7,320 nucleotides of DNA, taken from contig CAMJAJ010000054.1 of assembly GCA_946403565.1 (NCBI GenBank), positions 1-7,320 on the forward strand, read 5' to 3'. The stretch comes from an uncultured Treponema sp. GTDB lineage: Bacteria > Spirochaetota > Spirochaetia > Treponematales > Treponemataceae. Each line of letters begins with the position of its first letter. The first letter of the stretch is position 1. The position numbers were made by a program, and so were the translations under genes. Of this stretch, positions 665 through 5,462 are shown piece after piece. The notes under the pieces are model-generated. The model made no database searches, was not told where the DNA came from, and saw nothing but the letters and a program-made list of their open reading frames with translations.

Positions 665-689
665 TTAAATTTTCCCGTTGTGCTAGAGT
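661..689 (+). promoter_or_regulatory. Possible weak promoter for thrH
   Basis: TCGATT (661-666), a 17-nt spacer and TAGAGT (684-689), with an extended TG at 681-682, is the best plus-strand candidate upstream of thrH. The -35 box is poor. If used, it would leave a leader of about 55 nt containing the thrH ribosome binding site. A better promoter may have been missed. Confidence 0.3.
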
Positions 690-737
690 GTCTTTCACCG
701 CCGGAGGAAGGGTTCCTGCCGCGGAGTTTGCAGAAGT

Positions 738-743
738 GAGGTG
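738..743 (+). promoter_or_regulatory. Ribosome binding site that fixes the thrH start
   Basis: GAGGTG lies seven bases before the ATG at 751. It supports that ATG over an in-frame GTG at 688, which would add 21 residues not found in ThrH proteins. Confidence 0.75.
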
Positions 744-750
744 TGACGAC

Positions 751-1356
751 ATGGAAATTGTCTGTTTGGATTTGGAAGGGGTGCTGGTGCCGGAGATCTG
801 GATTGCCTTCTCCAAGGCATCGGGAATCAGCGAGCTGAAGAGGACGACGAGGGACGAGCCGGACTACGACAAGCTGATGAAGTGGCGGCTTGGCATACTC
901 AAGGAGCATGGGCTTGGCCTTAAGGAGATCCAGGACACCATCGCGACCATCGACCCTATGGAGGGGGCAAAGGACTTCCTTGACGAGCTCAGGAGCTTTA
1001 CGCAGGTGATAATCCTCAGCGACACCTTCACCCAGTTCGCAGGCCCGCTGATGAAGAAGCTCGGGCAGCCGACCATATTCTGCAACACGCTGGAGGTCGC
1101 TCCGTCAGGCGAGATAACGGGCTTCAGGCTGCGGTGCGAGAACGGGAAGCTGACGACGGTGAAGGCGCTGCAGTCCATCGGCTTCGACACAATCGCCGCC
1201 GGTGACAGCCATAACGACCTCGGGATGATCCGCGCGAGCAAGGCGGGCTTCCTCTTCCGCTCCACGGACAAGATAAAGGCCGACAACCCCGGCATACAGG
1301 CATTTGAGGAGTACGGGGACCTCCTTGCGGCGATAAAATCCGCCGTATCTTCTTGA
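751..1356 (+). CDS. thrH: ThrH-type phosphoserine phosphatase / homoserine phosphotransferase
   Basis: A 201-residue HAD-superfamily phosphatase. ThrH of Pseudomonas dephosphorylates phosphoserine and can transfer phosphate to homoserine, linking serine and threonine metabolism; the length here matches that family (about 205). The N-terminus MEIVCLDLEGVLVPEIWIAF is almost the same as I recall for ThrH. HAD motifs visible: the nucleophile loop DLEG with D7 and E9 (ThrH has DxE rather than DxD), VIILSDT at 87-92 with S90 as the motif II residue, lysines around 133-138 for motif III, and GDSHND at 151-156 as motif IV. The cap region includes TTRDEPDYDKLMKWR (32-46), also typical. The protein is cytoplasmic with no signal peptide. 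The start has a good ribosome site. The next gene begins 33 nt downstream but appears to have its own promoter. Which of the two reactions matters in this organism cannot be told from sequence. Confidence 0.92.
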   Translation: MEIVCLDLEGVLVPEIWIAFSKASGISELKRTTRDEPDYDKLMKWRLGILKEHGLGLKEIQDTIATIDPMEGAKDFLDELRSFTQVIILSDTFTQFAGPLMKKLGQPTIFCNTLEVAPSGEITGFRLRCENGKLTTVKALQSIGFDTIAAGDSHNDLGMIRASKAGFLFRSTDKIKADNPGIQAFEEYGDLLAAIKSAVSS

Positions 1357-2092: not shown

Positions 2093-3688
2093 ATGGCCAG
2101 CAAGGATTTAATTTTGCTTCTGACGGCCGAACAGGCCTTCATACACAACTTCAACGCAAAGGAAAACTTCGTCTACGAGGACTCGGTCCTCTTTTCGGCG
2201 ATATCGAACAGCTACCTGCCCCTGCTGAACATGTTCCGCAGGCTGGAAGGGGAAGGCGTTCCGTTCAAGCTGGGCCTTGTCCTCAGCACCCCGCTCTGCA
2301 CCCTGCTGGCCCACAAGAGCACCAAGAAGAAGTACGTTGCCTGGCTTGACAAGATGCAGAAGCTGGGCGAGGAGGAGCTGGAGCGGCATGCGGGGGAGGA
2401 AGACGTCCTCCGCAATGTCAGGCACTGCCTCCAGGCCGTCCAGAAGAATAAGGAAGATTTTGAGGAGACCTATGAGGGCGACCTCCTGAAGGCCTTCAAG
2501 TCCTTTGCGGACAAGGGCTTTTTGGAGCTGATTCCCACGGCGGCGACATACAGCTACCTGCCCCATTACGGGGACCTGAAGGAGGCCCTGAACGCCCAGG
2601 TGGACGTGGGGCTGCATGCCCACCGGTCTTTCTTTGGCGAGACCGGGGACGGCTTCTTTCTCCCCTACCTTGGGTGGGCGGATGACTTTGATACGGTCCT
2701 CCGCTCCTATGGCGTGAACTACACGGTCGTGGACACACGGTCCCTCCTCTTCAGCAAGGACCTGCCTCCCACGGGGATATTTAGCCCCGTACGGACAAAG
2801 AAGTCGCTCGTCATCTTCGCGCGGGACTTCGACACACCCGAGGACATAGGGGGGAACCCGGCGGACGGACAGGACGACGGCTACATGAACGCCCCGGTCT
2901 ACCGCTGCGAACTGAACGACATCGGCTTCGAGCTGCATGACGGGAACATGGAGGACTTCCTCGGCACGGACTCGTCCAGGCTCCAGACGTGCTACAAGTA
3001 CTGGTCGAACGACGGGGCCACATACGATGAGGAGGCGGCGGAAGTCCAGGTGAAGGAAGATGCGGAGGACTTCTACCGCAAGAAGCTTTGCAAGCTGGAG
3101 GAGGCCGAGCAGCTGCTGGACGGAATGGAGAACGTGCTCACCTGCGTCATCCCGGCCCGGCTGATCGGCGACAGCTGGCACGAGGGCGTTTCATGGCTGG
3201 AACAGGTGATACGGCTTGCCGCCTCCGAAGGCAAGCTCCAGCTCTCCCTCTGCAAGGACCATATCGAGAAGCAGTTCAGCCTGCCCAAGATCACGCCCTA
3301 TCCGTGCAGCGCGGAAGGTGACGGCTACGGCGAGAACCTGCTGCACAGCTCCAACAGCTGGATGACGGACTGCGTACGGATTGCCAGCGAGCGCATGATA
3401 GACCTGACGGACCGCTTTCCCGCGGAGACCGGCATAAAGGCACGCATACTGAACCTCGGAGCCAAGGAGGTCCTGCTCGCGCAGTCGGCGGCATGGCAGA
3501 AGATGCTGTATGACGGGAACCTGCCGGAGTACGCCAGCATGGCGTTCAGCTCCTGCATACGCAACTTCAACATGGTGTTTGACTCGCTCGCGAGCAACAC
3601 CGTCAACACGGAATGGCTGTGCAGGTTGGAGAAGGAGGACAACATATTCCCCTGGTTGTCCTACAAGGTGTTCAGCAAGAAAAGATAG
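2093..3688 (+). CDS. GH57/DUF1957 branching-enzyme-like protein, catalytic residues lost
   Basis: A 531-residue cytoplasmic protein, close to the length of GH57 1,4-alpha-glucan branching enzymes (such as TTHA1902). Family landmarks: ENFVYEDSVLFSAISNSYLP (24-43), EGVPFKLGLVLS (54-65), LELIPTAATYSYLPH (144-158), VNYTVVDTRSLLF (208-220), WHEGVSWLEQVIRLA (362-376), and a DUF1957-like C-terminus with VLLAQSAAW (460-468) and DNIFPWLSYKVF (516-527). Every catalytic signature I can align is altered: the HAHLPF motif reads TAEQAF (11-16), the nucleophile loop LPEC reads LPYL (190-193; Glu to Tyr192), and DTELFGHWW reads PARLIGDSW (354-362; Asp to Pro354). The frame is intact, so this is a pseudoenzyme candidate rather than a decayed gene. 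The start lacks a good ribosome site and follows the DUF4912 stop by four bases, implying translational coupling. A binding or regulatory role is inference. Confidence 0.85.
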   Translation: MASKDLILLLTAEQAFIHNFNAKENFVYEDSVLFSAISNSYLPLLNMFRRLEGEGVPFKLGLVLSTPLCTLLAHKSTKKKYVAWLDKMQKLGEEELERHAGEEDVLRNVRHCLQAVQKNKEDFEETYEGDLLKAFKSFADKGFLELIPTAATYSYLPHYGDLKEALNAQVDVGLHAHRSFFGETGDGFFLPYLGWADDFDTVLRSYGVNYTVVDTRSLLFSKDLPPTGIFSPVRTKKSLVIFARDFDTPEDIGGNPADGQDDGYMNAPVYRCELNDIGFELHDGNMEDFLGTDSSRLQTCYKYWSNDGATYDEEAAEVQVKEDAEDFYRKKLCKLEEAEQLLDGMENVLTCVIPARLIGDSWHEGVSWLEQVIRLAASEGKLQLSLCKDHIEKQFSLPKITPYPCSAEGDGYGENLLHSSNSWMTDCVRIASERMIDLTDRFPAETGIKARILNLGAKEVLLAQSAAWQKMLYDGNLPEYASMAFSSCIRNFNMVFDSLASNTVNTEWLCRLEKEDNIFPWLSYKVFSKKR

Positions 3689-3694
3689 GGCGAG

Positions 3695-4492
3695 ATGAAT
3701 AGCGGCCGCCTCGTTTCCAGCCTCATCATGCTCTTCCTGCCCCTCCTCCCCCTCTGTTCCGATGATGGCGGGGATGCAGGCAGGCAGTCGCTCTACGACA
3801 TGGCGGTGGGACAGCTTGCTTCCGGGCCGGTTTCCGCAGACGAAGAGCCGAGGCGGCCCGCGCTGGGGGATGTGGACGGCAGGGACGAGAACGGAACGAC
3901 GGCCCTCATGCGGGCGGCCAAGGAAGGCAACGACTGGGAAGTGCGGATGCTGCTGGAAGCCGGTGCGGACGTCAACGCGAGGGACAGCGAGGGCTGGACT
4001 GCCCTGATGTATGCCGTCCGCTATCAGAACGGCAGCGACATCGTCAGCCTTCTGGGCAAGGCCGGGGCATATATGCGGGTCCGAAGCGCGCACAACACGA
4101 CTCCCCTGCTCCTGGCGGCCGCGTACAGCCAGAACCCGGACATAATCGACATGCTCCTGCAGGGAAGAAGCGGAGCTGAGGAGGAGGTGTTCAACGCCTT
4201 CATACTGGCGGTGGAAGACGGGAAGTCCAGCCAGCCGGTCAAGGAGGAGAAGCTCAGGCGCTTCCTACGGAAGGGGGTTCCGGTCAACGGCTTCTTCCGG
4301 GGGCTTACGCCGCTGATGTACGCATGCAGGTACGGCTCCACATCGCTCGCTGCCCGCTGCCTGCTGGAAGGGGGCGCGGATGCATCCCTGCAGGGCGAGG
4401 AAGGCAAGAGCGCGCTGGACTATGCGATGGAGAATCCCTCGTTTCCCCACGACAGGATTTTTAGCACGTTGATGGAAGGAAAAGGCTTATGA
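3695..4492 (+). CDS. Exported ankyrin-repeat protein, possible lipoprotein
   Basis: A 265-residue protein. The N-terminus has a short charged stretch and a hydrophobic core (residues 6-20, ending LLPLC), then SDDGGDAG, so export is likely. C21 could be a lipidation site: spirochaetal lipoboxes are loose, but Leu just before the Cys is unusual, so cleavage by ordinary signal peptidase is the alternative. About five or six ankyrin repeats follow: NGTTALMRAA (66-75), GWTALMYAV (100-108), NTTPLLLAAA (134-143), a degenerate unit around 165-200, RGLTPLMYAC (202-211) and GKSALDYAM (237-245). The clearest repeat ends are EAGADVNARD (88-97) and EGGADASLQG (225-234). Ankyrin repeats bind proteins; no partner can be named. 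The gene starts six bases after the GH57-like stop with AGGG (3687-3690) as a close ribosome site, and ends overlapping rsmD. Confidence 0.85.
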   Translation: MNSGRLVSSLIMLFLPLLPLCSDDGGDAGRQSLYDMAVGQLASGPVSADEEPRRPALGDVDGRDENGTTALMRAAKEGNDWEVRMLLEAGADVNARDSEGWTALMYAVRYQNGSDIVSLLGKAGAYMRVRSAHNTTPLLLAAAYSQNPDIIDMLLQGRSGAEEEVFNAFILAVEDGKSSQPVKEEKLRRFLRKGVPVNGFFRGLTPLMYACRYGSTSLAARCLLEGGADASLQGEEGKSALDYAMENPSFPHDRIFSTLMEGKGL

Positions 4493-5049
4493 GGATTACC
4501 GGAGGACTTTTAAAGGGCAGGACCACGCAGACTCCGAACGGCAAGATGGCGATTCGCCCTGCGATGGACATGATGCGGGAATCGGTCTTTGCGATACTGG
4601 GAACGGAGCTTGAGGGCAAGAGCTTCCTGGACCTGTTCTCGGGATCGGGGACCATCGCGCTGGAGGCCGTGTCGCATGGGGCAAAAGGTGTCTGCCTCTG
4701 CGAGATGGACAAGGACAAGGCAAAGACCATTATCGAAAACGTCAAGATGGCGGAGGAGCTTGGGGAGCGGATTGACTGCCACTTTATGGCCGTGGAGCTG
4801 TACCTGAAGCGCTGCAAGAAGCAGTTCGACTATATCTTCCTGGACCCGCCCTTCCCCTACCGCTTCAGGAAGGAGCTTGTCGAGACAATCGGTAAACGGA
4901 ACCTGCTCAACGACGGGGGGCTTGCCATGCTGCACCACCCCAAGGAAGACCCCCTGCCGGAAGAGCTGGGCGGCCTGAAGCGGGTCGACCAGCGCACGTA
5001 CGGGCGGTCGATAGTGGATTTCTTCAAAAAAACCGCAACTAAGCCTTGA
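4489..5049 (+). CDS. rsmD: 16S rRNA (guanine966-N2)-methyltransferase RsmD
   Basis: A 186-residue SAM-dependent methyltransferase that methylates N2 of G966 of 16S rRNA in the small ribosomal subunit. Motifs: the N-terminal signature MRITGGLLKGR (1-11), RPAMDMMRESVFAIL (23-37; usually RPT...RE), the SAM-binding loop LDLFSGSGTIALEAVSHGA (47-65), acidic E72-M-D74 after strand 2, and the catalytic motif IV DPPF at 119-122. The length is normal for RsmD. The ATG overlaps the previous stop as ATGA (4489-4492), and AAGGA at 4476-4480 gives an eight-base spacing, so it is co-translated with the ankyrin gene. Its TGA overlaps the -35 box of the next promoter. Confidence 0.94.
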   Translation: MRITGGLLKGRTTQTPNGKMAIRPAMDMMRESVFAILGTELEGKSFLDLFSGSGTIALEAVSHGAKGVCLCEMDKDKAKTIIENVKMAEELGERIDCHFMAVELYLKRCKKQFDYIFLDPPFPYRFRKELVETIGKRNLLNDGGLAMLHHPKEDPLPEELGGLKRVDQRTYGRSIVDFFKKTATKP

Positions 5050-5117: not shown

Positions 5118-5462
5118 TTGTTGGACGCTGATTTAAAAAAACAGATAGATGACAAGCAGGGGAAAGAAGGGTTCATAAAGGTCACGGACCTTCCGGTCGG
5201 CAACCTTTCGCTCCAGCAGAAGACCATACTAAACCGCAAGGCCAACGAGCTTTTCAATGAAGGGAAGGTTGAGATGGCGGAGCGCATCTTCATTACGACA
5301 GGATATTCAGACGGCTTGACCCGCTGTGGCGACAAGTATGCCGAAAAGTATGAATATATCAAGGCCCTGCGGCTGTACCTTTTGGCGCACAACAAGAGGA
5401 AATCGGAGCCATTGATTGAAAAGGTCGCAGGAATGGTTTCCACGCTGCTGGAAGAATCATAG
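5118..5462 (+). CDS. Conserved small protein of unknown function
   Basis: A 114-residue hydrophilic, mostly helical protein without signal peptide or membrane segment. I do not recognise a named family, though it resembles small hypothetical proteins I associate with treponemes. Visible parts: a charged start DADLKKQIDDKQGKEGFIKV (3-22), the segment TDLPVGNLSLQQKTILNRKA (23-42), then NELFNEGKVEMAERIFITTG (43-62), which reads like one TPR-type hairpin, and SDGLTRCGDKYAEKYEYIKA (64-83) leading to LRLYLLAHNKRKSEPLIEKV (84-103), a second. No ATG is available before codon 53, so the start is a TTG: 5118 or the next codon at 5121. AGGAA (5113-5117) touches the first and is three bases from the second. 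It lies 60 nt before a TPR gene, consistent with a shared helical-repeat role; this is inference. Confidence 0.78.
   Translation: MLDADLKKQIDDKQGKEGFIKVTDLPVGNLSLQQKTILNRKANELFNEGKVEMAERIFITTGYSDGLTRCGDKYAEKYEYIKALRLYLLAHNKRKSEPLIEKVAGMVSTLLEES

Follow-up and report, generated by a model that had tools for sequence, protein, structure and literature searches.

Why would a treponeme keep a full-length gene for a branching-enzyme fold whose catalytic residues have been replaced? This question is raised by the window, i.e. the whole stretch of 7,320 nucleotides from an uncultured Treponema sp. analysed here, in which a GH57-like protein is encoded directly downstream of a DUF4912 protein (Table 1). 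We propose that the protein is a catalytically dead relative of the GH57 branching enzymes which is probably maintained by selection as a partner of the DUF4912 protein.

A branching-enzyme fold without its active site

The first-pass annotation had described the gene product as a full-length homologue of GH57 branching enzymes with replaced catalytic motifs. This description was confirmed, as the protein carries TAEQAF at residues 11-16, Tyr192, Pro354 and QSAAW. The family profiles Glyco_hydro_57 and BE_C score over their cut-offs and the fold is covered over its full length. In the branching enzymes of Thermotoga maritima (AmyC, 2b5d), Thermus thermophilus (TT1467/TTHA1902, 1ufa and 3p0b) and Thermococcus kodakarensis (TK1436, 3n8t) the catalytic pair consists of a Glu nucleophile and an Asp acid/base, whereas Tyr192 and Pro354 occupy these positions in the window protein. 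AmyC has been treated as a branching enzyme in the literature (PMC6616209). Compared with this group, His13, E356, H360, D467, W32, W253, W407 and W416 are replaced as well. The six-residue site composed of H13, E192, D354, E356, H360 and D467, which reads HEDEHD in intact spirochaetal members, is EYPRDA here. Moreover, the NCBIfam equivalog cut-offs for GH57 glycogen branching enzymes are missed (NF041566, 145.1 versus 920 bits; NF041133, 131.5 versus 1000 bits), a result that is weak when taken alone, both models being of thermophile lineages. As judged from the alignments and the modelled fold, the protein shares its architecture with branching enzymes and has lost both catalytic residues together with conserved aromatic residues of the pocket. 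GH57 catalysis is almost certainly absent from it, and the automatic label "1,4-alpha-glucan branching enzyme" on it and its closest kin is probably wrong.

Table 1. Features of the window, with positions counted from its first nucleotide
Feature	Position	Strand	Remark
thrH (ThrH-type phosphatase)	within the frame 688-1356	+	
DUF4912 protein, 232 aa	1390..2088	+	Pfam match
GH57 branching-enzyme-like pseudoenzyme, 531 aa	2093..3688	+	
TAEQAF, residues 11-16, at the HAHLPF-type region	2123..2140	+	Glu where full-site relatives have His13
Tyr192 (TAC) at the catalytic nucleophile position	2666..2668	+	Glu in intact relatives
Pro354 (CCG) at the acid/base position	3152..3154	+	Asp in intact relatives
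BE_C helical domain, residues 431-527	3383..3673	+	PF09210, 92.4 bits
QSAAW, residues 464-468, at the SDW-type motif site	3482..3496	+	
C-terminal tail YKVFSKKR	3662..3685	+	Phe527 and Lys530 conserved in the dead clade
Ankyrin-repeat gene	3695-4492	+	
rsmD	4489-5049	+	
TPR gene		+	3' of rsmD

Only 4 bases separate the stop codon of the DUF4912 gene from the start of the GH57-like gene, which is followed after 6 bases by the ankyrin-repeat gene; the latter overlaps rsmD by ATGA. Because of this spacing, the four genes resemble a single transcription unit. The three nearest titled relatives of the GH57-like protein (76-79% identical) belong to metagenome-assembled genomes (MAGs) labelled Treponema or Spirochaetaceae. 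Two long minus-strand frames, 2108-3181 (357 aa) and 3191-4093 (300 aa), lie antisense to the GH57-like and ankyrin genes; such frames tend to arise from the high GC3 of the coding strand. For a frame of 114 aa between rsmD and the TPR gene (5118-5462) no Pfam or NCBIfam match was found at E values up to 1.

Extent and grading of the active-site loss

The loss is not confined to the window strain. In a careful tree of 70 rows, from which 30 catalytic-motif columns had been removed, 39 rows comprising the Rectinema-type and all Treponema-like sequences, the window included, form one clade with a support of 96/98, hereafter the dead clade. None of these 39 rows has the full six-residue set, which is present in AmyC and 22 others outside the clade. 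For a wider view, 296 Spirochaetota genomes were searched, 170 of which have a GH57 match. Loci were classified for 130 of these, while the other 40 (including G173 and G210) did not enter; together with the window and G002 this gave 132 loci, duplicated, truncated or masked-base-broken entries (L001-L004, L007 and L008) having been left out of the set. With AmyC as row 133, Glu and Asp stand at both catalytic columns in 80 rows and the pair is absent from 53. The full site occurs in 68 of the 133 rows (67 loci and AmyC), where His13 is invariant by construction since it belongs to the definition, and in none of the 52 rows of the dead clade. Five dead-clade loci (L036, L065, L085, L125 and L136) have Glu and Asp without other residues of the site.

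Two sets of database homologues gave the same picture. The first, G1, holds the window protein and 118 full-length homologues (n=119) from the best 120 of its 650 homologues. The second, G2, holds the best 120 of 5559 proteins found with the C-terminal four fifths of the Spirochaetes MAG protein L004; the named proteins among these best 120 come mainly from Rectinemataceae and other spirochaetes, and a few carry labels of MAGs from elsewhere. The partial sequences P0027 and P0066 were excluded from the residue counts. At position 192 Glu is never found in G1 (Y 80, F 27, H 6, C 2 and S, N, M and Q once each) or in G2 (Gln 99, His 20, Asn 1). Position 354 is Pro in 85 and Asp in 18 of the G1 sequences, and in G2 Asp354, His13, Glu356, His360 and Asp467 are present in all 120. 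The full HEDEHD site is found in 0/119 and 0/120, respectively. Hence an isolated decay in the window strain is refuted by these homologues, and sister species that keep the motifs, a case against the first-pass annotation, were not encountered in the clade, G1 or G2. On the Treponema side both positions vary widely, with Y, F, S, A, H, C, D or E at 192 and P, D, S, N, Y, E or R at 354. As a separate observation, two loci counted among the 53 without the pair (L119 and L120, in G270 and G188) have Asp in place of the nucleophile Glu and keep the other five key residues; GT5 matches twice in their small genomes and TIGR01515 not at all, and judged by their residues these proteins may be active.

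Of those rows in the 133-row set that lie outside the dead clade, 13 differ from the full site at a single position; L118 has Tyr for Glu there, and L033 and L127 have Ser for Asp. Placing L118 inside the dead clade was rejected by the AU test (p-AU 0.022, for a group named after the tree was seen), and placing L033/L127 there was not (p-AU 0.39). These results lend some support to two separate losses, and there may have been more. An alternative topology for the order of the first steps was not quite rejected (p-AU 0.0535), and the order of residue loss is only suggestive. A change from Glu to Tyr at position 192, each requiring at least two base changes, is seen in three lineages that are separate in the tree, L118, L054 and the clade of the window; L054 sits on a long branch and its placement is unsure.

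The erosion of the remaining pocket is graded. We scored the 51 columns whose conservation among the 68 full-site rows reaches 93% or more, six of them by construction because they define these rows, and regarded a column as kept when it was conserved in 80% or more of a group. By this measure G2 keeps 47 columns, a count that may be too low as W253 was scored as lost though the L004 protein has a Trp a few columns away, G1 keeps 21 and the Treponema-side genomes (48 rows) keep 19, i.e. 32/51 are lost. Some single proteins are close to intact. The Rectinema-type L013 retains 49 of the 51 (changes E192Q and Y480F), L118 likewise 49 (E192Y and S466G) and L023 47 (L72V, D354N, E356D and S466A). 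The window protein retains 30 versus a minimum of 46 in full-site rows; even L050 and L055, full-site rows only 43% identical to the nearest other one, reach 48 and 50. Besides the catalytic motifs, P15, E30, W32, H153, W253, P265, H360, W407 and W416 are lost on the Treponema side, while P43, P157, Q169, G187, D276, Y311, W362 and E364 are kept in 48/48 rows. Judging from their conservation and general knowledge of GH57, the lost tryptophans would line the sugar pocket. As these aromatics are lost as well, binding of glucan in the old cleft of the window protein is unlikely.

Some positions are newly conserved. G1 has 85 columns that are at least 95% conserved, several of which (Y206, K449, L499, W521 and K530) occur seldom or not at all in full-site rows; F442 and F527 follow the same pattern when the Treponema-side rows are compared with these. 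F527 is found in a fraction of 1.00 and K530 in 0.96 of the 48 Treponema-side rows, and K530 reaches at least 0.95 in G1 and 0.99 in G2 versus 0.10 in full-site rows. Another acidic pair at the site would speak for retained catalysis. By sequence, the Treponema side offers no conserved acidic column in the aligned catalytic regions that could serve as such a replacement, and those that it conserves in contrast to the full-site rows (164, 171, 445 and 497) fall outside these regions.

Selection was assessed by NG86 for 15 dead-clade pairs, of which 13 gave a finite dS and two were saturated, some of the others being near saturation. The finite dN/dS values range from 0.042 to 0.153, and those of intact pairs (4 finite of 7) from 0.022 to 0.138. 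No internal stop was reported in the 52 sampled clade members (the match in L065 begins at residue 28). Therefore, purifying selection acts on the protein, which does not prove that the loss of catalysis was itself favoured. The earlier proposal of a conserved pseudoenzyme, and not a product of decay, is thus supported. Such a protein may have the binding, scaffold or regulatory role proposed along with it.

The putative DUF4912 partner

The protein encoded upstream matches DUF4912 (PF16258) with 62.3 bits versus a cut-off of 29.4. It is predicted to consist of a helical N-terminal domain (residues 8-59) and a beta-sandwich (about 85-188) that may be FnIII-like. The resemblance of the N-terminal domain to Rho_N is weak (best E 0.0021, 7 of 48 members). 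With an iterated local HMM, a same-strand DUF4912 domain was detected immediately 5' of the GH57 match in all 53 loci without the Glu/Asp pair, the two being no more than 194 bases apart, and directly upstream within 300 bases in 52/52 dead-clade loci. Among the 79 loci that have the pair, it lies within 300 bases in 48, at 344 bases in L112 (measured between domain matches) and at 2.7 kb in L086. In the other 29 it was not found in the stretch of the locus, and 23 of these have it elsewhere in the genome. Adjacency is thus not universal. Fused DUF4912-GH57 frames were not found among the 132 loci.

At the level of genomes, 151 of the 296 Spirochaetota have both families, 17 only the GH57 type, 3 only DUF4912 and 125 neither, where G173 and G210, which have only other GH57 types, were left out of the positives. 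By the more sensitive local HMM, 10 of the 17 GH57-only genomes do have an adjacent DUF4912. A Fisher p-value for this co-occurrence overstates the case because adjacency and co-occurrence are correlated by shared ancestry. DUF4912 also reaches beyond the phylum, with matches in the controls Bacillus subtilis, S. elongatus and T. maritima (over the cut-off in 2 of 14 controls). Taken together, the sequence comparisons establish clade-wide loss, purifying selection and near-obligate pairing with DUF4912. Adjacency and co-occurrence favour, by a modest degree, a physical action of the GH57-like protein together with the DUF4912 protein.

In the literature searched, the term DUF4912 occurs in one paper, on a cotton transcriptome, and nothing on the function of the family was found. 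A role in defence was also considered; PADLOC gave no match for the DUF4912 or the GH57-like protein at E values up to 0.1. A conserved neighbourhood beyond DUF4912 was rejected, since the commonest other cluster is present in only 19/52 dead-clade loci (16 commonest clusters listed, many flanks about 1.5 kb). This is a secreted-looking family of about 440 aa on the opposite strand, which adjoins the pair in 19 of the 52 loci, in 18 of them downstream.

Glycogen context and possible roles

We consider it probable that selection maintains the dead fold as a partner for the product of the upstream DUF4912 gene; its present role is most likely a non-enzymatic, structural or regulatory one that is independent of glycogen. 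Any more specific role is doubtful. According to a possible course of events, the pair of DUF4912 and GH57 enzyme would already have existed in the ancestors of the clade. Catalysis would then have been dropped by single-residue changes, Glu to Gln or His on the Rectinema side and Asp to Asn in early branches of the Treponema side, and the resulting pocket could hold glucan without cutting it. Finally the pocket would have eroded on the Treponema side without loss of the scaffold, of the helical C-terminal domain or of the new conserved positions. The middle stage is suggested by analogy. Titles of PDB entries 9jlr and 8zyi describe E256Q and D352N mutants of a GH57 amylopullulanase in complex with maltooligosaccharides, and as the few-residue stage of the Rectinema-type proteins, L023 and L118 resembles these inactive mutants, a glucan-holding stage that was later abandoned on the Treponema side can be envisaged. 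More speculatively, DUF4912 and the GH57 fold might form a two-protein module of the Spirochaetota for which branching was never the essential function. Catalysis would have been expendable in it and dropped more than once, (near-)isosteric changes (Glu to Gln/His) giving a glucan-trapping receptor in Rectinema and the subsequent dismantling of the pocket in Treponema a structural or regulatory complex with no dependence on glycogen, which even a treponeme-like genome of 1.14 Mb without detected glycogen genes has kept.

GH57 proteins that have outlived their catalytic residues are known. Martinovicova and Janecek described in 2018 a GBE-like group of 60 bacterial sequences without catalytic residues (PMC6037648), a lack that the window protein shares. 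The alpha-amylase-like and 4-alpha-glucanotransferase-like proteins treated there are likewise folds without catalytic residues, but kin of other GH57 specificities. Treponema is not mentioned in the main text of that paper, and "spirochaet" appears there twice, each time for Spirochaeta thermophila. Neither "spirochaet" nor "pseudoenzyme" occurs in the searched part of a 2024 review (PMC11046441), and a literature search on spirochaetal GH57/DUF1957 pseudoenzymes and treponeme glycogen branching gave no paper recognisable as treating this family. Because such proteins are in print, the novelty is confined to the clade-wide extent, the graded series, the partner and the evidence of selection. 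Within one phylum and beside the same DUF4912 partner, the series runs from an intact enzyme through single-residue dead proteins with a nearly untouched pocket to an eroded pseudoenzyme under selection. It makes a post-catalytic role of a glycogen-enzyme fold testable, and DUF4912 gains a candidate partner.

Searches for GT5, TIGR01515 and PF02806 covered 80 genomes, including 49 of the 51 dead-clade genomes, and those for GT35 covered 50. GT5 matches are present in 78/80 genomes and in 48 of the 49 dead-clade ones (45 over 200 bits; G001, G271 and G141 weaker). TIGR01515 exceeds its cut-off in one of the 80, G004, and in none of the 49, nor does the dead clade have a full-site GH57. A link to glycogen is therefore conceivable. 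PF02806 matches in four of the 80. The dead clade contributes one of these, G272, in which a 489-aa frame scores 20.8 bits, or 22.4 together with its neighbours, versus a cut-off of 21.2. A GT35 phosphorylase match was found in 47/50 genomes and is missing in G001, G059 and G241. The 1.14-Mb genome G059 (contig of 1,139,633 bases) has the GH57-like and DUF4912 genes side by side and no match to GT5, TIGR01515, PF02806 or GT35. In another small genome (L121 in G241, 1.5 Mb) the Glu/Asp pair is kept, E356 is Gln, and GT5, TIGR01515 and GT35 gave no match. A takeover by a GH13 branching enzyme was rejected. Of the TIGR01515-matching GH13 frames of about 715 aa, the three that were scanned (L138 in a dead-clade genome, L144 and L147 in other lineages) are GlgX over the NCBIfam cut-off. 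One further frame, L148, proved to be a type I pullulanase.

Against this background, a lectin-like regulator, which would hold alpha-glucan in the old cleft and would sense or organise glycogen together with the Ig-like DUF4912 protein, is the best surviving rival, though an unlikely one. The Rectinema-type proteins, which lose chiefly the nucleophile and keep 47/51 columns, L118 (49/51) and L023 (47/51), the sugar complexes of the E-to-Q and D-to-N mutants named in the PDB titles, and the GT5 matches in 48/49 dead-clade genomes would all suit it. In the window protein, however, W32, H153, W253, P265, H360, W407 and W416 are replaced, each being kept in a fraction of at most 0.17 of the 48 Treponema-side rows, and G059 retains the pair although none of the four glycogen families searched for gave a match there. 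The same GT5 matches would also suit an allosteric or stabilising subunit of GlgA, GlgX or GlgP instead of a DUF4912 partner. We regard this as improbable, as no glycogen-like gene was seen by eye among the 16 commonest neighbour clusters (flanks about 1.5-4 kb) and G059 has neither GT5 nor GT35 matches.

Still less credible is an enzyme of altered chemistry, in which transfer is supported by Tyr192 (Gln or His in kin) or by some other residue and the protein is the missing treponeme branching enzyme. Such an enzyme would account for GT5 in 48 of the 49 dead-clade genomes with TIGR01515 over its cut-off in none, for the recurrence of Tyr192 outside the dead clade on the tree (L118 and L054) and for the GlgX debranching enzyme identified in G168, but positions 192 and 354 are highly variable on the Treponema side, the alignments contain no replacement acidic pair and the conserved pocket is dismantled. 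Neutral decay of a dispensable glycogen gene, to which the freely variable former active-site columns of the Treponema side might point, is hardly tenable given the lack of any reported internal stop in the 52 sampled members, dN/dS values of 0.04-0.15, the 85 conserved columns in G1 and the retention of the gene in the 1.14-Mb genome.

Irrespective of the role of the pair, the tested treponemes with glycogen-synthase-type genes are exposed as lacking a recognised branching enzyme. Those with GT5 (e.g. G168, G119 and G002) and mostly also GT35 may store a linear glucan or possess an unrecognised branching enzyme.
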